Source of the DNA: a bacterium
GTDB taxonomy: Bacteria > UBA8248
Reading direction: 5' to 3'
DNA: 64,000 bases
Assembly: GCA_022825065.1 (NCBI GenBank)
Contig: JAJDYR010000030.1
Location: 62,001 to 126,000, forward strand
Shown here: piece by piece, positions 8,160 through 18,806 of the stretch
Numbering within the stretch: position 1 is the first letter of the stretch
Layout: every line of letters starts with the position of its first letter
The notes under the pieces: model-generated
The model's input: the letters and a program-made list of their open reading frames with translations, nothing else
Database searches by the model: none
What the model was told of the DNA's origin: nothing
Program-made: the position numbers and the translations under genes

Positions 8160-8648
8160 CTAGAAGAACAGAACCAGCAGGATGAGGCTGATCAGGCCCC
8201 CGAGCATGAAACACGCGGCGCTGACGGTGCCGGCCACCGTGGTGTAGTCCGCGATGCGAAAGGTCGCGCCCTCGACCGTGAAGAGCACCTTCGTGCGATC
8301 CAGATTGCCGTCGACGAACTCCTTGAGCCCTTTCTCCGCCCCGTGCGCTTCTTTCACCGAGACCATGGTCACCAGCACGAGGGTCAGGGCCGCCAGGAGC
8401 ACTCCGGTTCCGAACACAACCAGCGCCAGCAGGAGCGTCCAGTGATAGAGCGCGTTTTCGGCCTTCGCGGTATTGCTCATGAAGCCGATGACCAACGCGG
8501 TGCCGCCCGCGTTGCCGTAGAGCAGCATGCGCCCCGACTCGGTGATCAGCCGGAACATGGTGCCGCGCCGCAGGGCGATGACCTTGTAGAGTTCGCGCAG
8601 CCACTCCTCCCCGACTTCTTCGGTGGAAAACTCATCTACCTTTTTCAA
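8160..8648 (-). CDS. Hypothetical membrane protein with about three spans
   Basis: A 162-residue protein of unknown family. The N-terminal ~45 residues are soluble and charged (MKKVDEFSTEEVGEEWLREL). Hydrophobic segments follow at about residues 70-105 (LLLALVVFGTGVLLAALTLV) and 135-162 (AGTVSAACFMLGGLISLILL), separated by a charged loop (EAHGAEKGLKEFVDGNLDRT). It ends in LFF inside the last span. Its start codon overlaps the stop of the substrate-binding protein gene by four bases, so the two are co-translated. The context suggests a membrane partner of that binding protein or of the SPFH complex, but nothing in the sequence proves either. Confidence 0.6.
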   Translation of the reverse strand: MKKVDEFSTEEVGEEWLRELYKVIALRRGTMFRLITESGRMLLYGNAGGTALVIGFMSNTAKAENALYHWTLLLALVVFGTGVLLAALTLVLVTMVSVKEAHGAEKGLKEFVDGNLDRTKVLFTVEGATFRIADYTTVAGTVSAACFMLGGLISLILLVLFF

Positions 8649-9841
8649 GGCCGCCCTCTCCTTTCGTGGAATCGTCGCAGCTCCCGGGATTCGGTCATCC
8701 TGACGTATTTCGAGCCGAAGTTGGTCCCGGGCTTGAATTCAACGGCCCAGTCGTCGATGAGCATGACGCCGGAGGCCAGGGCCTGCTGGAGGAACCGCTC
8801 CCGCGTCACTTCCTTGCCCGTGCGCTCCAGCACGGCGATGACGAAGCGCCCGAGAATGTAGCCCTCCAGGGACAACTGGCTGAAGGCGGGCTGAACGGAG
8901 CGGTTGCGCTTCTTGTCCGCTCTCGCCCGCATGGCGCGCTGATAACTTCTGACGATTTTTCTGCTCGTGTCGTTCGCGTCCGGCAGCACGTCGCTCATCA
9001 GGATTTTCCTGCCCGGCGCGTCCAGCTTCCGTCCCAGGCTTTTGGGCTGGGCGATGGACAGAATCGTCATGATGTAATCGTATCCCAGGTCGTTCGCGAG
9101 ATTGATGATCTCCGCGCTGGCCGCACTCGTCCCGCCGATCATCAAGACGTCGAGATCGGCTTTTTGCAGGACGAAAAGGCCCGCGTGAACGGCATGGGTA
9201 TTGCGCGAAAAACTCGCTTTCGCCAGGACGCGAAGCTTGTGTCCGGCGAGCGCCGCCCGGTAGCTCTTCAATATGGAGCGCCCGAAAGCGTCGTCCTGAT
9301 AGATGATGCCGAAACGCTTCTTCCCGTGGTCATGAACGATGTGGTCCACCAAAGCGCGGACCTCCTGGGAATAGCTCGCCCGCAGGTGGACGAGGTTGGG
9401 ATACCGCCTGGCGTCGCGCAGAAAGTCGGCGCCGCTCAGGACGCCCACCAGTGGAATCCCGGCGTTTCTCAGTACGGGCGCGGCGCGCTTCGTCGTCGGC
9501 GTTCCCGTGCCGCCGATCAGGGCGAGCACGTCGTTTTCGGCGGCGAATCGCTTCGCGTTCGCCGCCGCCCTCGCGGGTTCATATCCATCGTCGAGCGAGA
9601 TCAGCTTCAACACCCTGCCGCCTACGCCGCCGAGCGCGTTGCGCTCCGCAAGCGCCGCGAGGAGGCCGCTCTGGAAGAGCAAACCGGCGCTCCTGGCCGG
9701 CCCGGAGATGCTGACGGTCTGACCGAAAACGACCGCATCCGCACTCACGCCGGGCGCCGCCGCCGAGAGCGGCGGGGCCAACAGCAGCGCCAGCGCCAGA
9801 AACGGCGCCGCCCGAAGGGTTCCGATCAGCCGATCAATCAT
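8645..9841 (-). CDS. Periplasmic substrate-binding protein, Leu/Ile/Val type (Peripla_BP_6)
   Basis: A 398-residue exported binding protein. It has a signal peptide (MIDRLIGTLRAAPFLALALL to about residue 29), then VVFGQTVSISGPARSAGLLF, the family entry strand, plus DDGYEPARAAANAKRF, ALIGGTGTPTTKRAAPVL and FGIIYQDDAFGRSILKSYRA. These match type I periplasmic folds used by branched-chain amino acid and amide ABC importers. No ABC permease or ATPase gene lies nearby, so it may act as a sensor or an orphan receptor instead. I chose ATG 9841, just after the stop of the HflK-like gene; ATG 9865 is possible. Its stop overlaps the next start (ATGA). The ligand is unknown. Confidence 0.78.
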   Translation of the reverse strand: MIDRLIGTLRAAPFLALALLLAPPLSAAAPGVSADAVVFGQTVSISGPARSAGLLFQSGLLAALAERNALGGVGGRVLKLISLDDGYEPARAAANAKRFAAENDVLALIGGTGTPTTKRAAPVLRNAGIPLVGVLSGADFLRDARRYPNLVHLRASYSQEVRALVDHIVHDHGKKRFGIIYQDDAFGRSILKSYRAALAGHKLRVLAKASFSRNTHAVHAGLFVLQKADLDVLMIGGTSAASAEIINLANDLGYDYIMTILSIAQPKSLGRKLDAPGRKILMSDVLPDANDTSRKIVRSYQRAMRARADKKRNRSVQPAFSQLSLEGYILGRFVIAVLERTGKEVTRERFLQQALASGVMLIDDWAVEFKPGTNFGSKYVRMTESRELRRFHERRGRP

Positions 9842-9842
9842 C

Positions 9843-11159
9843 TTATTTTCCCGTCCCGCGCCCATGGTTGCTCCCGCCCGCGCCGCGCATCCTCTCCGTC
9901 ATCGGCCTCTGGTCCGCCCGGTTTCCGAGGCCCCTGCGGCCGCGCGCGCCGTGGCGATGAGAGAATATGGAGGGGGTATCGAATATGAGAGAGCGGGGAT
10001 TGGCCACCCGCGCGTGATCGCGCTCCGTGCGCCTTTTGTGGAATTGGCCTTGCATCAGCGGCTTGTCCGGCCGGGTGGTTTCGAGCTTGTGGATGTAGGG
10101 CGGCATCGTGGCCCTGCTCAGGCGTCCGTCGCCGTCGGCGGCCGTATGCGGCATTTGCGTCACCATTTCCGCCCGGGCATGTCCCGCCCCATCCGCCGGG
10201 GCGAAGCCCGCCACGCCGTCGAGCATGTTGATGTCGATGGTCGAGTCCGCCCCCGGATTCACCACCGACAGGGTCGCCTCGGTGAAGATCGCGCGCATGC
10301 GCTGCCAGTAACGCGTGATGGCCACCTGTTTCGGGTTCTTCTGGTATTCGGCCAGCAACGCCTTGAAGGCGCGGACGCTGCCCCGCGCCTGAACGAGGCG
10401 TTCGCGGGCGTTCGCCTTCGCGTTCATGATCAGCGCCTCGGCCTGGCCCTTGCTGCGGGCGAGGAGTTTTTCCCTCTGGCTGTTCGCCAGGCTCACGACC
10501 TGCTCGCGCTAGGCGATGGCGTCGTTGACGTCGCGGAACGCCTGGAGGGTCTCGGGGATCGGGCGCACCTCGACGATGTTCAGCGTGACGAGTTCAATTC
10601 CGACGCCCAGCGATTCGAGGCGTTTGCCCACGATATCGGACAACTCCTGTTGAATGACGTCGCGGTTCGAGGTGAAGATCAGGTCGATGAAGTTTTCCCC
10701 CAGGATCTTCACCAATCCCTCCCGGACGAGCATGGTGAGCATCGCGCGGGGGTCGGAGGCCGCGAAGAGGTAGGAGCGCAGGTTCTTGATCTTGTACTGA
10801 ACGGCCACGTCCGTTTCGAGGAGGTTCAGGTCTCCGGAGAGTATCGTGAAGTTGATCGTGCTGCCGCTTCTGCTCCCGATCTGGTATCCGACGATTCTCT
10901 TGACCTGGCGAACGTGCGCTTGTTCGATGAGCGGGACGGCGTAGCCCAGCCCGGGGCCGATTTCGGCGTCGACTACCTGCCCGAAGCGGGTGCGCACGGC
11001 TTGTTCTTCTTTTTTGACGACGTAGAAGCCGGTGGCCAGAAAGTAGAGGGCGGCCAGGACGAGGAGGATACAGAGAATCTTTTTGTAGCGCCCCTCGAGG
11101 TAGTCGAAGGTGGCGTATATGGCTCTGGTGCTCGGAGGCAATGACTGTGATTCGCTCAT
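9843..11159 (-). pseudogene. HflK-like SPFH protein interrupted by an in-frame TAG
   Basis: The N-terminal part (216 codons, ending at TAG 10509-10511) has a membrane segment near residues 27-47 (KKILCILLVLAALYFLATGF), then FYVVKKEEQAVRTRFGQVVD and ELVTLNIVEVRPIPETLQAF, typical of HflK. The same frame continues directly after the TAG as REQVVSLANSQREKLLARSK, which is the expected start of the HflK coiled-coil, for a further 220 or so codons. One substitution, for example CAG or GAG to TAG, explains the break. A GTG at 10494-10496 could restart translation of the C-terminal part, but its ribosome-binding site is weak. HflK normally pairs with HflC around membrane proteases. A sequencing error, a real lesion or readthrough cannot be told apart here. 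Confidence 0.75.
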
Positions 11160-12067
11160 CGTCCCGTCCCGTTCCCGCGGGGTATCTCCTTGCTGTCCAG
11201 GTATTTGAACAGTTCGTTGTCCGCAGGCAGCATGAGGGTCGTGTTCCGGTCGATGATGAGATCATAGCTGTCCAGCGCCCGGATGAACTTGTAGAACTCC
11301 GGGTCCGCCTTGTACGCCTCTCCGAGCAGCGCCATCGCCTCGGCTTCCGCCTTGCCCAGAATGGCCGTCGCCTCGGCGTGGGCGTCGGCCAGGAGTTTTT
11401 CGTGCTCGTTGATGGCGCGGGCCTCGATGCGGATCGCCGTCTCCTCCCCCTCGCTCCGGTAGCGGGCGGCGATGCGGGCGCGCTCGGAGATCATGCGCTG
11501 AATCACGCTCGGCCGGTTCGCCACCGGCAGCGTATACTCCACGATTCCGGTCCGCACCACCTCCACGCCGTACCTTTTCTTCGCGACGGGCGCGATAAGC
11601 GCGAGAATTTCCCCGGACGCCTCGCTCAGGTCCTCATGCTCCAGACCCAGGCCGATGAAGGCGTCGCGCGCCTTGTTGGAGATGATGATGCCGCTGCTCG
11701 ACATGTAGAGGTCCTTGAGCCGGTTCGTCGCGCTCTTGCCGGTACGGATCGCTTCGACGAAGAGAATGGGGTCCCGCACGCGCCAGAGCAGGTATCCGTC
11801 GACGAGGACGCTCTTCTGGTCTTCGGTAATCAGTTCCTGGGTGAGGCCGGTCAGGGCGTGAATGCGCCGGTCGACCTTGTACACCTTCGATATGGGCCGG
11901 GGCCATTTCATGTGGAGACCGGGCTGCCTGACGGGAGGCGAAATCTTGCCGAAGTGGGTCAGCACGCCCTGCTGCGTCTCGTTGACGACGAAGAAGCAGT
12001 CGTAGGCTATGACGAGCAGGACGACCACGGCGATGGCCGCGACGATTCTCTTTGCGCTGAAGGTCAT
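11156..12067 (-). CDS. HflC-like SPFH-domain membrane protein
   Basis: A 303-residue protein with one N-terminal membrane anchor (RIVAAIAVVVLLVIAYDCFF) followed by an SPFH/prohibitin domain. FVVNETQQGVLTHFGKI, PGLHMKWPRPISKVYKVDRR and QKSVLVDGYLLWRVRDPILF match HflC closely. The C-terminal half is an Ala/Glu-rich coiled coil (AEATAILGKAEAEAMALLGE) ending with YKADPEFYKFIRALDSYD, the conserved HflC tail. HflC and HflK form a cage around FtsH in other bacteria; no ftsH is in the window. Its start overlaps the stop of the permease-SPFH fusion, and its stop overlaps the HflK-like start, each by four bases. I avoid the name hflC because this copy belongs to an accessory metal-type operon. Confidence 0.82.
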   Translation of the reverse strand: MTFSAKRIVAAIAVVVLLVIAYDCFFVVNETQQGVLTHFGKISPPVRQPGLHMKWPRPISKVYKVDRRIHALTGLTQELITEDQKSVLVDGYLLWRVRDPILFVEAIRTGKSATNRLKDLYMSSSGIIISNKARDAFIGLGLEHEDLSEASGEILALIAPVAKKRYGVEVVRTGIVEYTLPVANRPSVIQRMISERARIAARYRSEGEETAIRIEARAINEHEKLLADAHAEATAILGKAEAEAMALLGEAYKADPEFYKFIRALDSYDLIIDRNTTLMLPADNELFKYLDSKEIPRGNGTGR

Positions 12068-14796
12068 CTCTTTTCTCTCCCCGTTTGATTCGCTCCGGCG
12101 ATGGAAGCATTGCGCGCGACGTTCTGTTTCGCCGCCGCGCCCTGAGCAGCGCTTCTCTCATTTCCGCTGTTTTTCCCGCCGGGGGTCGCTTCGCCTCCCG
12201 GTTTTTCGGATTTGGCCGCGCCGCTCTTTCCGTTCACCTGGCTATTCGCGCCATGAGCCGCGCCGCCCGCCGATTTCGCCGATTCGCCGTGGCCGGTTTG
12301 TTTTTCGCCGTTTCCGCCAGCGTGGGCCGCGCCGCCCTTGGATTTTTCCGATCCGCCGTCGCTCTTGCCGTCCTTGCCGTTTTTCCCGCCATGGCCTTCA
12401 TCTTCGCCGGGAGCGTGCTTCCCGCGCGCGGGCATGTGGGCGCCATGCCTCGTCCCCGGCGACTTCCTCTTCCAAAGCGCGACCTTGGCCAAGCTGCCCT
12501 TTTCGGGAACGATGATCTTGGAATTGTGCGAGAGCGCGATTTCGAGTTTCTCGCGCCACAGCATGTTCTGGAGAACCTCCGGAGCGCTTCGCACGGCGCC
12601 GGACACTCGACGGAGCGCATCGGCCTCCGCCCCGGCGCCCTTCACCCTCCGGTACGCCTCGCCGTCGGCTTGCTTCACCTCGTAATCGGCGTTGCCGTGC
12701 GCCTGGGGCGTCAGCGACACCAGGAGCCGCTGCGCGTTGACGATGATGCGCTCCTTGTCCTCCTGCGCGCTCGATACCTCCCGGAACGCGCTTATCGTCT
12801 CTTTCACGGGGCGGATGGACGCCAGGTTCACCTTGACCAGTTCGACGCTCCCGAACGCCGAGGTTTCTACGTCCGGATGCCCCTCCTCCTCCTTGGTGGA
12901 CGAATGCGTGAACAAATGGGTGACGTGCTTCTCCAGGGTTTCACGGTGAATGTTGAGCAACTGATCCAGGCCCCGGGCGGAAACGAAAGAGCGCAGGTGA
13001 TCCCGGACGCCGTCCTCGATGATTTGCGGCGCGTTCAGGACCCGATAATGGTAGGCGAAGGGGTCTTTCACCCGGTACTGCACGTTCACGGTGAGTGAAA
13101 CCAGGTTCAGGTCGCCGGACACGTATTCGTGGACGTCGCCGGACATGATGGACTTCACTTCCCGGACCGGCCATTTGTCGACCTCGATGAGGGGCCAGGG
13201 AGCGAGATAGTGCAGCCCCGGCTGCAGATCCCTCCAGTGGACCTTGCCGAACAATCGGCCGTAGCCGACCGCGCCGGGAGGCACCGTCGTAAAGCCCGTG
13301 CCGAGGTAGATGAGGAGAATCAGGCCCGAGAGCATCAGGCCCATCGGCGTTTTCAGGGAAAAGGCGCCTCGTATGGGCCGGCCCCGGGTGAGGCGCTCCC
13401 ACACGTGCTTGCAGGGCGCGGACATGGAGCGGATGTTTTGCATCAGATCCTCGTATCCCGTCCGGAAGGCGCCGGCGCGGAACCGCCATACGATGAGGGC
13501 GAAAAAGGCCAGGGCGCTGCCGTATTGCAGGATGAGGATGGCGGGCGAGTCCGAGGCGTCGAGGTTCACGGGAAGCGTGAAGCCGGTGGTGAAGAAAAAG
13601 GCGTCGATGAGGACGGCGAAAATGACGGTGACGACGATGACGACGCCGACATAGATGGAGGCGAAGCGCGTGCCGAACTGGTTCATGATGACCGCGATGG
13701 TGCCCGTATTGGTCGCCGGGCCCGTCATGAGAAAAATCAGCGCCGCTCCGGGAGAGAAACCCTTGGCGACGAGCGCGGCGGCGATGGGCGTGCTCGCGGA
13801 CGCGCAGATATAAAGGGGAATCCCGATGATGACCATGATCGGGTAGGAAGCCCAGCGGGCGTACTCGTTCTGCATCAGATCGCTCGGGATCACCAGAAAA
13901 AGCAATCCGCCCACGAAAACGCCGAAGAGAAGCGAGAAAAGGATGTCGTCCGCGATCTCGATGAACCCGTAGCTGAATATATGCCTGACGATCGTCCTGA
14001 ATCCCGGCAGTCGATCCTCCTCGGGCGCAGGCTCAAGGGCGGTCTCGGCCGATTCCTCATCGACGAGCAATTCCTCCTGATAGAAATCCGGCTTCACCCA
14101 GGACGCGGCCCGCCAGTTCCGTATCGATACGAAAACGCCTCTCAGCCAGCGGCGCATGGCATGCTTCAGTTGCGTGGGGCTGATATAGCAGTCCTCCGAG
14201 CCCGGCATGAGCGGCTCGTGCGCGCCGTGGTCGTGGCCGTGGTCGTGCCCATGTCCATGATCGTGGCCGTGACCATGCCCATGGCCGTGGTCATGATCGT
14301 GCCCGTGATCATGGTCGTGATCGTGCTCCCCCTCCCGCGCTTCGCCCTGGTCGGTTCTGATGAGACCGATGCAGAAAATGCCCGCGACGACGGCGGTGAC
14401 GAAGCTGATGACGGGCCGGACTATCGCGGCTATCCATCCGAAGAAGGCGTTCGTGACGAGGATCGAATCGGCGCCCGTTTCGGGCGCGGTGATGAGAAAG
14501 GACATGCAGGACGAGCGGGAAGCCCCTTTCCTGCGCATCTCCGCGACGACGGGCACGACCGAACAGCTGCACAGCGGCACCGGCACGCCGACGGCCGAAC
14601 TGACGCTCACCGATTTCAGGCTGTCGTCACGAAGCCACCGGAGAATCGCCTGGCGGGAGATGAAGACGTGGATGAGGCCTGAGAGGAACAGCCCGAGCAG
14701 CAGCATGGGCGAGAGCAGCAGGAACGACATCCACAGAAAGTAGAAAAAATCGGCGAATCGGCTCGCCAACTCGGCAGTCAATCGGTCATCCCCCAA
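12064..14796 (-). CDS. Heavy-metal permease (PF03773-type) fused to an SPFH domain
   Basis: A 910-residue protein. Residues 1-440 resemble the SO_0444-type Cu/Zn efflux permeases: two halves of membrane segments, the motif PVPLCSCSVVPV (Cys 76 and 78), MSFLITAPETGADSI in the first half and FLMTGPATNTGTIAVIMNQF in the second. The loop at 157-193 is almost pure His/Asp/Gly (HDHGHGHDHGHDHG), a metal-binding stretch typical of the group. After another membrane span (485-500) comes an SPFH/HflK-like domain (about 503-740: TTVPPGAVGYGRLFGKVHW, LNLVSLTVNVQYRVKDPFAY, SIRPVKETISAFREVSSA). The last 130 residues are a Gly/Lys/Ala/His-rich tail. The start is uncertain: TTG 14796, or TTG codons slightly downstream. 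It heads the SPFH operon. I infer metal export or sorting within a membrane scaffold. Confidence 0.78.
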   Translation of the reverse strand: MGDDRLTAELASRFADFFYFLWMSFLLLSPMLLLGLFLSGLIHVFISRQAILRWLRDDSLKSVSVSSAVGVPVPLCSCSVVPVVAEMRRKGASRSSCMSFLITAPETGADSILVTNAFFGWIAAIVRPVISFVTAVVAGIFCIGLIRTDQGEAREGEHDHDHDHGHDHDHGHGHGHGHDHGHGHDHGHDHGAHEPLMPGSEDCYISPTQLKHAMRRWLRGVFVSIRNWRAASWVKPDFYQEELLVDEESAETALEPAPEEDRLPGFRTIVRHIFSYGFIEIADDILFSLLFGVFVGGLLFLVIPSDLMQNEYARWASYPIMVIIGIPLYICASASTPIAAALVAKGFSPGAALIFLMTGPATNTGTIAVIMNQFGTRFASIYVGVVIVVTVIFAVLIDAFFFTTGFTLPVNLDASDSPAILILQYGSALAFFALIVWRFRAGAFRTGYEDLMQNIRSMSAPCKHVWERLTRGRPIRGAFSLKTPMGLMLSGLILLIYLGTGFTTVPPGAVGYGRLFGKVHWRDLQPGLHYLAPWPLIEVDKWPVREVKSIMSGDVHEYVSGDLNLVSLTVNVQYRVKDPFAYHYRVLNAPQIIEDGVRDHLRSFVSARGLDQLLNIHRETLEKHVTHLFTHSSTKEEEGHPDVETSAFGSVELVKVNLASIRPVKETISAFREVSSAQEDKERIIVNAQRLLVSLTPQAHGNADYEVKQADGEAYRRVKGAGAEADALRRVSGAVRSAPEVLQNMLWREKLEIALSHNSKIIVPEKGSLAKVALWKRKSPGTRHGAHMPARGKHAPGEDEGHGGKNGKDGKSDGGSEKSKGGAAHAGGNGEKQTGHGESAKSAGGAAHGANSQVNGKSGAAKSEKPGGEATPGGKNSGNERSAAQGAAAKQNVARNASIAGANQTGREKR

Positions 14797-15109
14797 CGGA
14801 GAGCACTCTGCACTATTTTACTGAATACTTTGGTGGAGCGCCTCGTGTAACACCCCTTCCAACATGGTGGTAGTACGTCAAGTTACAAGGCGAAAGGGGG
14901 TATGTCAACGATTTTTTCAGACGCAACAGCAGAATTTTGCGGAGAATCATCCAGCAGAGAGGGGTCGGGACAGTTTTCCCGTCAAAATCATCGGCTGCGG
15001 CGTCCGGGCCAGTGAACGCCGCTATTACGAAAATTCAAGCGCGGGCTACCGGGAATACGCGGGGAGCCGGGCGGGCTCGCTCCATATCCCCGAAAAACGC
15101 CGCGTCAAA
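14797..15109. other. Intergenic region between the fusion gene and znuA
   Basis: This 313-base region lies upstream of the fusion gene and downstream of znuA, both on the minus strand. It holds a candidate promoter (14880-14908) and otherwise no coding signal that I trust. It is richer in A+T than the flanking genes. No clear terminator for znuA is visible. Confidence 0.5.
14880..14908 (-). promoter_or_regulatory. Candidate sigma-70 promoter for the permease-SPFH operon
   Basis: On the minus strand TTGACA (14908-14903) is followed, after exactly 17 bases, by TAACTT (14885-14880). Transcription would start near 14873, giving a leader of roughly 75 bases before the fusion gene. The spacer and the bases after it contain ACCCCC and, further on, GGGGTG, but I see no clean operator palindrome. 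Confidence 0.4.
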
Positions 15110-16363
15110 TTATTTCCCCGAAAGGCACGTCCTGAGCGATTTCGCCATGTTGCGCATGAGGGTGAAATACGCATCCTCCCCGGCGGGAATGCCCGTGCCC
15201 AGCGGGTCGAGCACGCCGGTTCCTGCACCCGTGCCCTCCATGATGACCTTCACGAGCCTGGGCTGAAACTGCGGCTCGGTGAACACGCAGATCGACTTCG
15301 TGTCCCTGATCTTCTTGCGTATCGCCAGCAGGCGCGCCGAGCCCGGCTTCTTCTCGGGAGACAGCGTCACCGAACCGATGGGGGTCAGCCCGTAGCGTTT
15401 CTCCATGTATTGATACGCATCGTGAAAGACGATGTAGGGCGCGCCCTTCACGGGCGCAAGCGCCCGCGCGAGTTCCTCGTGCAAGGCGTCGATGCGGGCC
15501 TTCATATTCCGCGCGTTCGACTCGTATTTTTTCTTGTTCCGGGGATCCACCTCTTCGAGCTCATGGGCGATGGCGTCCACCCATTTTCGGGCGTTCATGG
15601 GGTCGAGCCAGATGTGCGCGTCGAAGCCGCCGTGATGGCCCTCCTCTTCTCCATGATGCCCCCTGGCCTCAGCCTTCTCGTCGTGATGATCATCCTTGGC
15701 CCCGGCCTTCTCCTTGTCGTGGTCGTCATCTTCGGTTTTGCCGCGTTTTTCTTCGTCGTGATGCTCTTCTTTGGCCTCGGCTTTCTCGTGATGATCGTCG
15801 TCTTTCGCCCTGGCTTCCATTTTCCCGTGGTCGTCATCCTTGGCCCCGGCTTTTTCTTTTTCGTCGTGATGATCGTCTTCAGCTTTCCCGCGTTTCTCCT
15901 TGTCGTGATCATCATCCCCGGCTTTCGCCTCTTTGCCCTCATCATGATGATCGCCTTCGGCCTTTTTCTCTCCGCCGTGATCATCGTCGTGCCCTTCCCA
16001 CAAGCCGCCTTCCCTGAGCTTCAACAACGCCAGTCCTTTCAATTCTCCCAGGGCGACGACGTTCGCCCTTTTCGGCAGAACTTCGAGAGGCCGCTCGAGG
16101 CCCGGGGCGAGCACATCGCCCACCCAGAAAATCACGCGCGCCCTCTCGAGTTCACTGGCGTCGGAGGGCTTGAGGGAAAACGTGTGCGGCGAGGCGACGC
16201 CTTTTATCAGAAGGTAGGGCTCCCCGACCCCCTTCATGACGCCGGATACCAGCGAATGAAGCGGCTTGATGGAGGTCACCACCCGGGGCGCGGCCGATGC
16301 GGGAGCCGCAAGGCGCGCTGCCAGAATGATTATAATAAGCCCGATGAGCAACACATGCTTCAT
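15110..16363 (-). CDS. znuA: Zinc ABC transporter substrate-binding protein ZnuA with very long His/Asp/Lys-rich loop
   Basis: Periplasmic zinc receptor of the cluster A-I family that delivers Zn2+ to ZnuBC. It has a signal peptide, then VVTSIKPLHSLVSGVMKGVG with the first ligand histidine, SPHTFSLKPSDASEL with the second, HIWLDPMNARKWVDAIAHEL with the third, and FTEPQFQPRLVK near the C terminus. Between the first lobe and HIWLDP lies a loop of about 125 residues made of repeated blocks such as KDDDHGKMEARAKDDDHHEK; most ZnuA loops are much shorter. I chose ATG 16363 because TAAGGA sits nine bases upstream; ATG 16372 would have almost no spacing. It is divergent from zur with a shared operator. 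Confidence 0.9.
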   Translation of the reverse strand: MKHVLLIGLIIIILAARLAAPASAAPRVVTSIKPLHSLVSGVMKGVGEPYLLIKGVASPHTFSLKPSDASELERARVIFWVGDVLAPGLERPLEVLPKRANVVALGELKGLALLKLREGGLWEGHDDDHGGEKKAEGDHHDEGKEAKAGDDDHDKEKRGKAEDDHHDEKEKAGAKDDDHGKMEARAKDDDHHEKAEAKEEHHDEEKRGKTEDDDHDKEKAGAKDDHHDEKAEARGHHGEEEGHHGGFDAHIWLDPMNARKWVDAIAHELEEVDPRNKKKYESNARNMKARIDALHEELARALAPVKGAPYIVFHDAYQYMEKRYGLTPIGSVTLSPEKKPGSARLLAIRKKIRDTKSICVFTEPQFQPRLVKVIMEGTGAGTGVLDPLGTGIPAGEDAYFTLMRNMAKSLRTCLSGK

Positions 16364-16409
16364 GAATGACATTCCTTACCCTAATTTAGAATTGAATAAA
16401 ATTTAGCTT

Positions 16410-16424
16410 TGCTATAGTATAATA
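16410..16424. promoter_or_regulatory. Zur-box-like operator between znuA and zur
   Basis: The sequence TGCTATA-G-TATAATA is a 7-1-7 imperfect inverted repeat (five of seven positions symmetric) with the TATA-N-TATA core typical of Zur boxes. It contains a perfect TATAAT (16418-16423) that can serve as the -10 element of zur. On the other strand TTGACG (16442-16437) and TATACT (16421-16416) could serve znuA. A zinc-loaded repressor bound here would block both directions. Confidence 0.6.
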
Positions 16425-16451: not shown

Positions 16452-16940
16452 ATGACATCGATCATCAAAAATTTCCCCGGCAGGCATCATGACCACGCGG
16501 CCTGCATCGAGAGCGCCCTGGAACAAGCGGTGACGCTTTGCCGGGAACGCGGTGCGAGGCTTACGCCGCTGAGACGCCGGGTGCTGGAAATCGTCTGGGA
16601 GAGCCACGCGCCCCTGGGCGCTTACGACGCGCTCCAGCGGATGAACGCAGGCGGGGAGCGAAATGCTCCGCCTACGGTCTACCGGGCGCTGGAGTTTCTC
16701 CTGGAGCACGGCCTCATACACCGCATCGAGAGCAGGAACGCATTCGTGGGATGCACCACACCGGGTAATTCTCACAAAGCCCAGTTCTTCATTTGCCGCG
16801 ACTGCGGAAACGTGGCCGAGACGCATAGCGAGGAAATCGGCGAGGCCATCAAGGCGAGCGCCACCCGGACCGGTTTTCTGGTGGAGAAGCCCGTTGTGGA
16901 AATCAGCGGTCGATGCCTGAAGTGTCATGACGATGAATGA
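16452..16940 (+). CDS. zur: Zinc uptake regulator, Fur family
   Basis: A 162-residue metal-dependent repressor. The N-terminal winged helix shows LTPLRRRVLEIVWESHAPLG and PPTVYRALEFLLEHGLIHRI, the Fur-family DNA-binding signature. The dimerisation domain carries the structural zinc site CRDCG near residue 117 and CLKCH near the C terminus, plus His/Cys in VGCTTPGNSHKAQFF. It starts with HH and DH residues (RHHDHAAC), often seen in Zur. ATG 16452 follows AAGGA by seven bases. It overlaps znuC by 14 bases, so regulator and transporter are expressed together. Naming as Zur rather than Fur rests on the znu context. Confidence 0.87.
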   Translation: MTSIIKNFPGRHHDHAACIESALEQAVTLCRERGARLTPLRRRVLEIVWESHAPLGAYDALQRMNAGGERNAPPTVYRALEFLLEHGLIHRIESRNAFVGCTTPGNSHKAQFFICRDCGNVAETHSEEIGEAIKASATRTGFLVEKPVVEISGRCLKCHDDE

Positions 16941-17718
16941 CGCGCCACCCCACCTCATTTCCGTCGCGAACCTCTATCTCCAAATCGGCGAGACGACGAT
17001 TCTCGAGAACGTCGACCTCGACATTTCGGCGGGTGAAATCCTCACTCTCATCGGCCCCAACGGCGCAGGCAAAACCACGCTCATCCGCGTGCTGCTCGGG
17101 CTGCTGAAACACGACTCGGGCGAAGTCCGCCGGAAAGAGGGCCTCTCTGTCGGTTACCTGCCCCAGGCCTTCGAAGTAGATCCCTCGCTCCCGCTTACCG
17201 TGCGTAGATTGTTGCGCCTCACGCAGAAGCCTTCGCCCGAGCAGATGGAGATGAGCCTCGAGGAAGTCGGCGCAGGAAACCTGCTGGATCATCCCGTTCA
17301 GAGCCTCTCCGGCGGAGAGGGTCAGCGTGTCCTGCTCGCCCGCGCCCTGCTGCGAAATCCCGATTTGCTGGTTCTCGATGAGCCCATCCAGAACGTGGAC
17401 GTCAACGGGCAGATCGAACTCTACCGCCTGATTGCGAAGATCAGAGACGACAGGGGCTGTGGCGTCATCATGATCTCGCACGACCTCCACCTCGTCATGG
17501 CCTTCACGGACCGCGTGGTGTGCCTCAACAGGCACGTCTGCTGCTCAGGACATCCCGAAGCCGTGAGCAAACACCCCGCATATCTCGACCTTTTCGGCAG
17601 GCAGGCGGCCGAGAGCCTGGCCGTCTACAAACACAGGCACGACCACGTTCACGGACCCGAAGGGGAGATACTTCCCGTCGAACCCGAAGAAGCCCCCCAC
17701 CCGCAAGGAGGCCGTTGA
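16927..17718 (+). CDS. znuC: Zinc ABC transporter ATP-binding protein
   Basis: ATPase of the high-affinity zinc importer, on the cytosolic face of ZnuB. Visible motifs: Walker A LIGPNGAGKTTLIR, Q-loop GYLPQAFEVD, signature LSGGEGQRVLLARAL, Walker B LLVLDEPIQNVDV and the switch histidine in MISHDLHLV. The C-terminal extension is His-rich (YKHRHDHVHGPEG), as in many ZnuC proteins. It begins inside the end of zur; ATG 16933 (MNDAPP) is an alternative start. Length 263 is typical. The znuB gene follows only after a 296-base gap that contains a repeat element, an unusual break in this operon. Confidence 0.93.
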   Translation: MTMNDAPPHLISVANLYLQIGETTILENVDLDISAGEILTLIGPNGAGKTTLIRVLLGLLKHDSGEVRRKEGLSVGYLPQAFEVDPSLPLTVRRLLRLTQKPSPEQMEMSLEEVGAGNLLDHPVQSLSGGEGQRVLLARALLRNPDLLVLDEPIQNVDVNGQIELYRLIAKIRDDRGCGVIMISHDLHLVMAFTDRVVCLNRHVCCSGHPEAVSKHPAYLDLFGRQAAESLAVYKHRHDHVHGPEGEILPVEPEEAPHPQGGR

Positions 17719-17920
17719 GAAAGCCCCTCTTAACAGGGGACAAAGGCAACCCCCCCTACCCCCCCTTATCAGGGGGGTATAAAAAGGCAATGCGCTCCCA
17801 CCGGGCTGCGAGGGGTTTGCTTTTTCTTGCCCCCCTGATAAGGGGGGGTAGGGGGGGTTGGTTTTATGGGATTTCCCTTTCAAGGGAGCTGCCATTGCCC
17901 TCTCAGGGGCTTTTTCAACA
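17714..17920. repeat. Dispersed repeat family A, copy 4 (inside the znuCB operon)
   Basis: Starts at GTTGAGAAAGCCCC, overlapping the last bases of znuC, has the C-run/TACC and GGTA/G-run arms (CCTTATCAGGGGGG facing CCCCCCTGATAAGG) and ends GGGGCTTTTTCAACAG. The paired arms here read TTATCAG instead of the TTGTCAG/CTGACAA of copy 1, a compensated change that keeps the palindrome. The rest of the gap to znuB is a leader that ends in AAGGAGG. Confidence 0.8.
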
Positions 17921-18014
17921 GACCCCTCAAGGGGGGAGTGAAAATGAAACTCAAGTAAGGTGTATTTTTCCTCGTCATTGCAGGGGTTTCAACAACCCCT
18001 CAAGGAGGCGCGTG

Positions 18015-18806
18015 ATGGAGGATTTCATGTTCCGGGGGCTCATGGGCGGGGTGGGCGTCGCCCTGGTGACGGGCCCCGTGGGCTGTTTCATCGTCTGGCG
18101 CAAGATGGCCTATTTCGGAAACTCCATGTCCCACACGGCCCTGCTCGGCGTGGCGATAGGGTTCGCTTTCGGGGTGGACCTCAGGCTCGGCATCCTCGTG
18201 TCCTGTATCGGCCTCGCGCTCGTTCTCCTCATGCTGCAAAGCCGGAAAACACTCTCCACCGACACGCTGCTGGGAATCCTGGCCCACACGGCGCTATCGG
18301 TGGGCATCATCGCCGTCAGCGTGCTGGAAACGCTCCGGGTCGACCTGATGGGCTACCTTTTCGGCGATATCCTCGCCGTCGGCCCGCTGGACTTATGGTG
18401 GATCTACCTGGGCGGCGCGGCGGCGCTGGCCACGCTCGCATGGCTGTGGCGGGGGCTTCTGGCCGTCACGGTGAACGAAGAGCTGGCGAGCGCCGAGGGG
18501 ATACCGACCTTCCGCGTGAAGTTCGTTTTCATGCTCCTGATCGCCTTCATTATCGCCGTAGCCATGAAGCTGATAGGGATTCTGCTCATCACCTCGATGC
18601 TCATCATTCCGGCGGCTGCGGCGCGGCGGTTCGCCAAAACGCCCGAGCAGATGGCGGCGCTCGCCGCCCTGGCGGGACTCGTATCAGTAGTGGCGGGTCT
18701 TTGGGTGTCGGTCGCATGGAACGCGCCCGCAGGGCCGTGCATCGTTGTGGTGGCGGCGGCGCTGTTCCTTTTCAGCCATACCTGGGAGATGCTGGCCGGC
18801 AGGTGA
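18015..18806 (+). CDS. znuB: Zinc ABC transporter permease
   Basis: Integral-membrane channel of the zinc importer, 263 residues, with about eight hydrophobic segments. It begins MEDFMFRGLMGGVGVALVTG, and GCFIVWRKMAYFGNSMSHTA is the conserved ABC-3 permease motif facing the ATPase. GILLITSMLIIPAAAARRFA near residue 195 is the second family signature. ATG 18015 is preceded by AAGGAGG with eight bases between, an excellent site. That makes it the likely start despite a long upstream reading frame through the repeat. The separation from znuC by a repeat element may alter stoichiometry or mRNA stability. Confidence 0.93.
   Translation: MEDFMFRGLMGGVGVALVTGPVGCFIVWRKMAYFGNSMSHTALLGVAIGFAFGVDLRLGILVSCIGLALVLLMLQSRKTLSTDTLLGILAHTALSVGIIAVSVLETLRVDLMGYLFGDILAVGPLDLWWIYLGGAAALATLAWLWRGLLAVTVNEELASAEGIPTFRVKFVFMLLIAFIIAVAMKLIGILLITSMLIIPAAAARRFAKTPEQMAALAALAGLVSVVAGLWVSVAWNAPAGPCIVVVAAALFLFSHTWEMLAGR

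Follow-up and report, generated by a model that had tools for sequence, protein, structure and literature searches.

Why would a metal transporter and an SPFH domain be built as one polypeptide? The question arises from a gene on a 64,000-nucleotide stretch of bacterial DNA (lineage UBA8248, assembly GCA_022825065.1, contig JAJDYR010000030.1, positions 62,001 to 126,000 of the forward strand), here called the window. At positions 12064-14796 of its minus strand, an SO_0444-type metal permease and an HflK-like SPFH domain share a protein of 910 residues. We found that this fusion recurs in several phyla, heads an operon with two further SPFH genes and has relatives in which another transporter occupies the place of the permease. 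On balance we favour the reading that a metal exporter would here be covalently built into a periplasmic, hetero-oligomeric SPFH cage, a proposal drawn from sequence comparison.

A permease and an SPFH domain in one conserved frame

An earlier note on this DNA had described a CSCS-motif permease with a poly-His loop, an SPFH domain and a Gly/Lys/His-rich tail in a single 910-residue frame, and this architecture was confirmed, on the minus strand. The 910 codons are open from a TTG start at 14796 to 12064, and the frame on the plus strand is interrupted by stops. The permease domain (residues 26-397, 13606-14721) matches PF03773 with 159 bits against a Pfam cut-off of 32.3, carries CSCS at residues 76-79 and YICASAS at residue 329, and lies in a region (residues 23-436) that passes the NCBIfam model of SO_0444 Cu/Zn efflux proteins (NF033936, 314.6 versus 300 bits). 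It has eight or nine helices, the count being uncertain, and its halves are separated by a His-rich loop (residues 157-193, 14218-14328; 18 His within residues 148-203) that is kept in all close orthologues at variable length. A strongly basic linker, characterised by its composition and by the ratio of nonsynonymous to synonymous substitution rates (dN/dS), forms the junction (residues 441-484, 13345-13476). It is followed by a transmembrane helix and the SPFH/Band_7 domain (residues 485-778, 12463-13344), where a hydrophobic segment at residues 483-506 stands ahead of the SPFH domain and PF01145 matches residues 504-689 (51.6 bits, Pfam cut-off 23.6). The fusion profile aligned with the E. 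coli HflK cage subunit (7vhp, HflK residues 82-346). The Gly/Lys/His/Ala-rich C-terminal tail (residues 779-910, 12067-12462), with 31 Gly, 14 Lys and 7 His among its 132 residues, is confined to the window's genus in the orthologue alignment. The label "HflK-like" given in the earlier note describes a likeness only: the fusion misses the cut-off of the NCBI HflK model (TIGR01933, 125.3 versus 159.4 bits), which some distant fusions pass (165.6 and 162.9 bits), and a separate canonical hflKC is present in the genome. In an AlphaFold2 (AF2) model, built from an alignment of the window sequence and eight loci rows, the permease was well predicted (predicted local distance difference test, pLDDT, mostly 80-90); a Foldseek comparison of the model with the PDB gave nothing under E = 0.1.

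Of the six other genomes in the genus, four have the fusion as an unbroken frame, at 90-97% identity. Beyond the genus, no further fusion was found among 18 genomes of the window's phylum. It is present on two contigs of metagenome-assembled genomes (MAGs), the source of most loci compared here: JAJEIO010000025.1 (Candidatus Latescibacterota) and JAPPFJ010000014.1 (labelled Gemmatimonadota). Both belong to one phylum of our genome set, 14 of whose 64 genomes carry the fusion. A third phylum contributes six more fused genomes out of 16, one copy being truncated by a contig end. These second- and third-phylum fusions are 59-70% identical to that of the window. Distant fusions, with 27-31% identity over the alignment, occur in families f96, f99, f100 and f232 within a spread of 386 genomes, and the complete phylum sets have fused genes in five of seven (f100) and three of seven (f232) genomes. 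Altogether, the fused genomes fall into five separate phylum sets: that of the window, the Latescibacterota-like set and those of f113, f100 and f232. The fusion is thus unusual among single proteins, as the earlier note held, but not in the sense of being unique to the window's genome, since it recurs across phyla.

At the junction, where a stop or frameshift would have spoken against the fusion, the frame runs through without interruption in five congeneric genomes and in other phyla, and the possibility that homologues are always encoded as two genes is contradicted by the many fused ones. The sole adjacent two-frame case (G469) was set aside: its reading frame is shifted at the junction, and a second frameshift lies in the following SPFH gene. 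Between the window and its congeners, dN/dS is 0.00-0.25 over the junction (441-484), 0.00-0.11 over the permease, 0.21-0.28 over the SPFH part and 0.47-0.81 over the tail. By this measure purifying selection acts on the junction, which argues that the fused parts are selected together as a single protein, and the tail appears nearly unconstrained.

A chance or neutral fusion by read-through between adjacent genes, or an artefact of assembly, with no joint function of the parts, would look alike if seen in a single genome, and the hardly constrained tail would suit it. We consider it hardly credible given the recurrence of the frame in five phyla or more, the low junction dN/dS, the second transporter family on the same kind of subunit and the strict co-occurrence with partner genes described below; the fused orthologues and the junction dN/dS rule out an artefact or a single-genome fusion.

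Two further SPFH genes in the same operon

The fusion (SPFH1) is the first of five genes that run in the same direction and overlap by 4 to 23 bases. The second, SPFH2 (11156-12067, minus strand, 303 residues), whose start overlaps the stop of the fusion by 4 bases, is HflC-like and exceeds the cut-off of TIGR01932 (167 versus 134 bits). The third, SPFH3 (9843-11159, minus strand, 438 codons), is HflK-like; an intact orthologue reaches 149 bits with the hflK model (cut-off 159.4), and the window copy contains an in-frame TAG that is discussed below. In one module, the SPFH3 protein is 598 residues long and extends about 370 residues past the SPFH domain, a portion without a Pfam match (L183 6052-7848).

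The fourth gene encodes a LivJ-like periplasmic binding protein (8645-9865, minus strand, 406 residues, PF13458) with an N-terminal hydrophobic, signal-like segment, and is conserved throughout the clade of close homologues (the close clade). Such a LivJ-type (Peripla_BP_6) protein within a metal operon may have an amino acid or a metallophore as its ligand. The fifth gene (8160-8648, minus strand) encodes a 162-residue membrane protein with two to three hydrophobic helices and no match in Pfam, NCBIfam, PHROGs or PDB. It is 64-70% identical across phyla and confined to genomes with a close-clade fusion, and an AF2 model built from two sequences shows three helices at a pLDDT of 61. Scans with PADLOC and PHROGs gave no match.

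The gene order is kept in the congeners and in every intact close-clade fused locus, and loci interrupted by contig ends (G006, G061) or a run of N (G467) agree with it as far as they can be read. SPFH2 adjoins every intact close-clade fusion whose contig continues.

Linked gain and loss of the SPFH domain and its partners

Some genomes of the second and third phyla encode a close permease (58-65% identical) that is unfused and has a ZIP gene downstream, in most cases immediately adjacent. These loci have none of the four partner genes, and the gene for the 162-residue protein is absent from their whole genomes. In genus g118, identical flanking genes are found with and without the block, which was therefore inserted or removed between the permease and the ZIP gene. 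The permease tree implies at least six changes of fused state over its starred branches; some of these are caused by the long-branch rows G403, G464, G269 and G454, and several others fall inside the close clade. Among close-clade loci, we found none in which the SPFH domain occurs in the absence of SPFH2 and SPFH3, and none in which these two occur in the absence of the domain. The SPFH domain and its partners thus share one fate, which suggests a joint function but does not prove it, because a single deletion over neighbouring DNA would remove everything together. The distant genome G453 contains a lone permease-SPFH fusion of 723 residues without SPFH2 and SPFH3 (L115 7747-9918) as well as a complete module (L116).

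Other transporters on the same kind of subunit

In genomes G052 and G465, the first gene encodes a CDF exporter (PF01545) fused to an SPFH domain (PF01145), and SPFH2 and SPFH3 follow. A plasmid of Aquibium oceanicum carries a further CDF-SPFH fusion, annotated simply as HflK (WP_072608301.1), and after it come HflC, HflK, one other gene and a heavy-metal P-type ATPase. Both HxxxD metal-site motifs of the CDF family are invariant in the three fusions (L202 4367-5914; L180 7824-9539; L181 2679-4469). These proteins resemble the window's fusion in joining a metal exporter to an HflK-like SPFH domain ahead of HflC-like and HflK-like genes, and differ in transporter fold. The idea of a transporter carrying its own scaffold, raised in the earlier note, gains support from these fusions, from the two partner SPFH genes directly downstream and from their joint gain and loss.

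Searching plasmids with the fusion as query returned plain HflK matches only, and those inspected were ordinary hflKC pairs. Two plasmid-borne hflKC pairs, in Methylophaga and Vibrio (L193, L194), lie beside cation/proton antiporter genes; in Methylophaga, heavy-metal genes are close by as well. With SPFH2 as query, three-SPFH modules were retrieved. Plasmids of Klebsiella aerogenes, Burkholderia ubonensis and Rhizobium tumorigenes encode a long first SPFH protein, HflC, a further SPFH protein and a P-type ATPase. Their first SPFH proteins (L203 4118-5824, L204 3859-5754, L205 3818-5836) have a polytopic N-terminal region of 225-320 residues that matches nothing in Pfam and could be a further transporter fused to SPFH, or a degenerate transporter.

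Module SPFH proteins compared with canonical HflK and HflC

In a phylogenetic tree, modules headed by a permease or a CDF have SPFH2 proteins that fall into one clade separate from canonical HflC (support 100/99), and SPFH3 proteins that fall into one clade separate from canonical HflK (99/93). The fused SPFH1 proteins of the close clade group with other fusions (97/88) and not with canonical HflK. When the plasmid modules were added, SPFH2 still formed one group with weak support (40/99), and this tree does not support a single origin of all module versions. P. aeruginosa PA2437-PA2439 were outside the tree, and the 14 control genomes include no P. aeruginosa.

These trees bear on a second alternative, in which the SPFH part would bring in FtsH. 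Metal status would then decide whether the transporter is degraded or left intact, and the cage would control turnover and not transport. SPFH2 does exceed the NCBI HflC cut-off, and the HflK/C cage is known to surround FtsH (7vhp and related entries). However, the window genome has canonical hflK and hflC elsewhere, along with a sixth SPFH gene, the module SPFH2 and SPFH3 clades are distinct from canonical HflC and HflK, and a protease gene occurs in none of the modules. We therefore regard such a quality-control role as improbable.

Between the window genome and G062, the module SPFH2 is 77% identical and the canonical HflC 52% (L094 and L211 versus the window and L003), a difference that suggests lateral transfer or stronger constraint.

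Metal-gene neighbourhoods and the direction of transport

In the window, the operon comes after znuA (15110-16372, minus strand, PF01297, synteny in the genus), and beyond it lie, divergently, a zur-like Fur-family regulator (16452-16940, plus strand, PF01475; the best NCBIfam model is Zur, at 124 bits and below its cut-off) and znuC with znuB (16927-18806, plus strand; NF007090 for ZnuC over its cut-off, synteny). The ZnuA protein has a very long His/Asp/Lys repeat insert of about 130 residues (DDDHDKEK-like), and the congener G003 has a second znuA-like gene near zur/znuCB (L038 2136-3425). The only Zur-like box of the window, allowing up to three mismatches (0.07 expected), is the palindrome TGCTATAGTATAATA in the zur/znuA intergenic region (16410-16424, plus strand). 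At the same threshold none was found upstream of the fusion, and read-through from znuA is possible. A promoter-like site upstream of the fusion, TTGACA-N17-TAACTT (14880-14908, minus strand), is conserved in the upstream alignment of five congeners. In the other two phyla, a ZIP gene usually lies 3' of the operon, and CzcCBA, CDF or P1B-ATPase genes are near many loci.

The closest studied relative of the module is the PA2439-PA2438-PA2437-PA2435 operon of Pseudomonas aeruginosa, in which three SPFH genes accompany the P1B-type ATPase HmtA under Zur regulation (PMC4542158, PMC8531726, PMC11761036). Like the window operon, it combines three SPFH genes with a metal transporter, and it is co-transcribed and regulated by zinc. 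It differs in that its transporter is a separate P-type ATPase, it lacks the LivJ-like gene and the gene for the 162-residue protein, and Zur control has been shown. The window operon has the SPFH1-SPFH2-SPFH3 order of HmtA-type operons but no P-type ATPase; the plasmid modules share the gene order of the hmtA operon, and their first SPFH protein is also polytopic at its N-terminus.

Uptake or starvation physiology is conceivable because of the Zur/ZnuABC neighbours and the zinc-starvation-induced HmtA operon. The permease or cage might then act in zinc limitation, by import or by returning periplasmic zinc. The adjacent znuA with zur/znuCB beyond it in the genus fits this idea, as do the rise of PA2435 and PA2437-2439 on zinc depletion, the binding of Zur to the PA2439 promoter and the ZIP genes that come after many modules. 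Several observations point the other way: the Zur-like box is found only between zur and znuA and the fusion has a promoter-like site of its own, the module lies with CzcCBA, CDF or P1B-ATPase genes in other phyla, and the permeases of the fusions, like the CDFs, belong to an exporter family. Weighing these, we consider a role in zinc limitation unlikely, though less so than quality control.

Export is favoured by the permease family, the exchange for a CDF and the Czc, CDF and P1B neighbours in relatives. A mutant of Shewanella SO_0444 is sensitive to Zn and Cu and was complemented (PMC3219624); by analogy with this phenotype the permease would mediate Zn/Cu efflux. SO_0444 belongs to the same permease family and is a stand-alone gene under a ZntR-like regulator, for which SPFH partners are unreported.

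A proposed SPFH cage with a built-in metal exporter

In the built-in exporter arrangement, the permease would move metal, most likely Zn2+ and perhaps Cu+ or Cd2+, out of the cytoplasm. That the substrate is a divalent or soft metal is very probable; export rather than import, the weakest link of the mechanism, seems reasonably likely. The linker at 441-484, being strongly basic, would be cytoplasmic by the positive-inside rule, so the helix that follows would cross outward and place the SPFH domain in the periplasm, where HflK/C have theirs. There, the fused SPFH domain, the HflC-like SPFH2 and the HflK-like SPFH3 would assemble into an HflK/C-type dome, and we think it likely that the three share a common cage. 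The dome might cluster permeases and enclose a small periplasmic space that takes up the ion once exported; the ion would then be handed to a partner (the binding protein, or RND efflux in relatives) instead of leaking back. This chamber function is put forward tentatively.

Several findings weigh against the arrangement. The permease persists in relatives that have no cage genes, and the cage would therefore be dispensable for transport. The operon stands beside the Zur/ZnuABC uptake genes, and its closest studied relative is induced by zinc starvation. Codon 217 of the window's SPFH3 (10509-10511, minus strand) is TAG, in the window genome only, where four congeners have GAG (Glu); it is either a real nonsense mutation or a sequencing or assembly error. 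AF2 left the SPFH part and the tail of the fusion at low confidence. Finally, the HmtA-type (P-ATPase) SPFH1 and SPFH3 proteins occupy their own long branch and are not clearly within the module clades.

Relation to known SPFH assemblies

SPFH cages, SO_0444 permeases and operons of three SPFH genes with a metal ATPase in zinc-regulon lists are already known. In the open-access literature searched, we found no account of a transporter-SPFH fusion, with permease or CDF, or of the module as a family, and a paper on SPFH evolution (PMC2636767) mentions neither transporters nor permeases. SPFH2 is homologous to E. coli HflC, and SPFH1 and SPFH3 to HflK, over the transmembrane and SPFH regions, and a periplasmic location is expected for them; in E. 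coli, by contrast, the transporter is not fused, there are two SPFH genes and not three, and they serve FtsH. Solved stomatin SPFH domes enclose AQP1/UT-B (PMC12407830) and provide a physical precedent for an SPFH ring around a transporter in a membrane patch, although these domes are non-covalent, cytoplasmic, eukaryotic and homomeric and hold water/urea transporters.

What is known of bacterial SPFH function comes mostly from indirect evidence (microdomains, FtsH). In the modules described here, a client has been joined to a cage subunit on at least two occasions, involving different transporters, and with the client welded to the subunit its identity, stoichiometry and site become readable from the gene. 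The fusions therefore allow the idea that SPFH domes enclose transporters and serve them to be tested directly, and they hint at the function of many proteins that carry an HflK/HflC annotation, among them the products of the zinc-regulated SPFH genes next to Pseudomonas hmtA. They may also add a compartment step to bacterial metal efflux. More speculatively, the modules could represent a widespread class of three-subunit SPFH cages, with a transporter making up the N-terminal half of one subunit (an SO_0444 permease or a CDF, and perhaps further polytopic domains); exported metal would enter a closed periplasmic chamber and be passed on, and the cage would be a general transporter compartment and not just an FtsH regulator.

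Among the loci inspected, a Sandaracinaceae MAG encodes an ArsP_1 permease (L031 6200-8422) with a weak, sub-cut-off ZIP match in frame ahead of it (24.5 bits), a possible ZIP-permease fusion.

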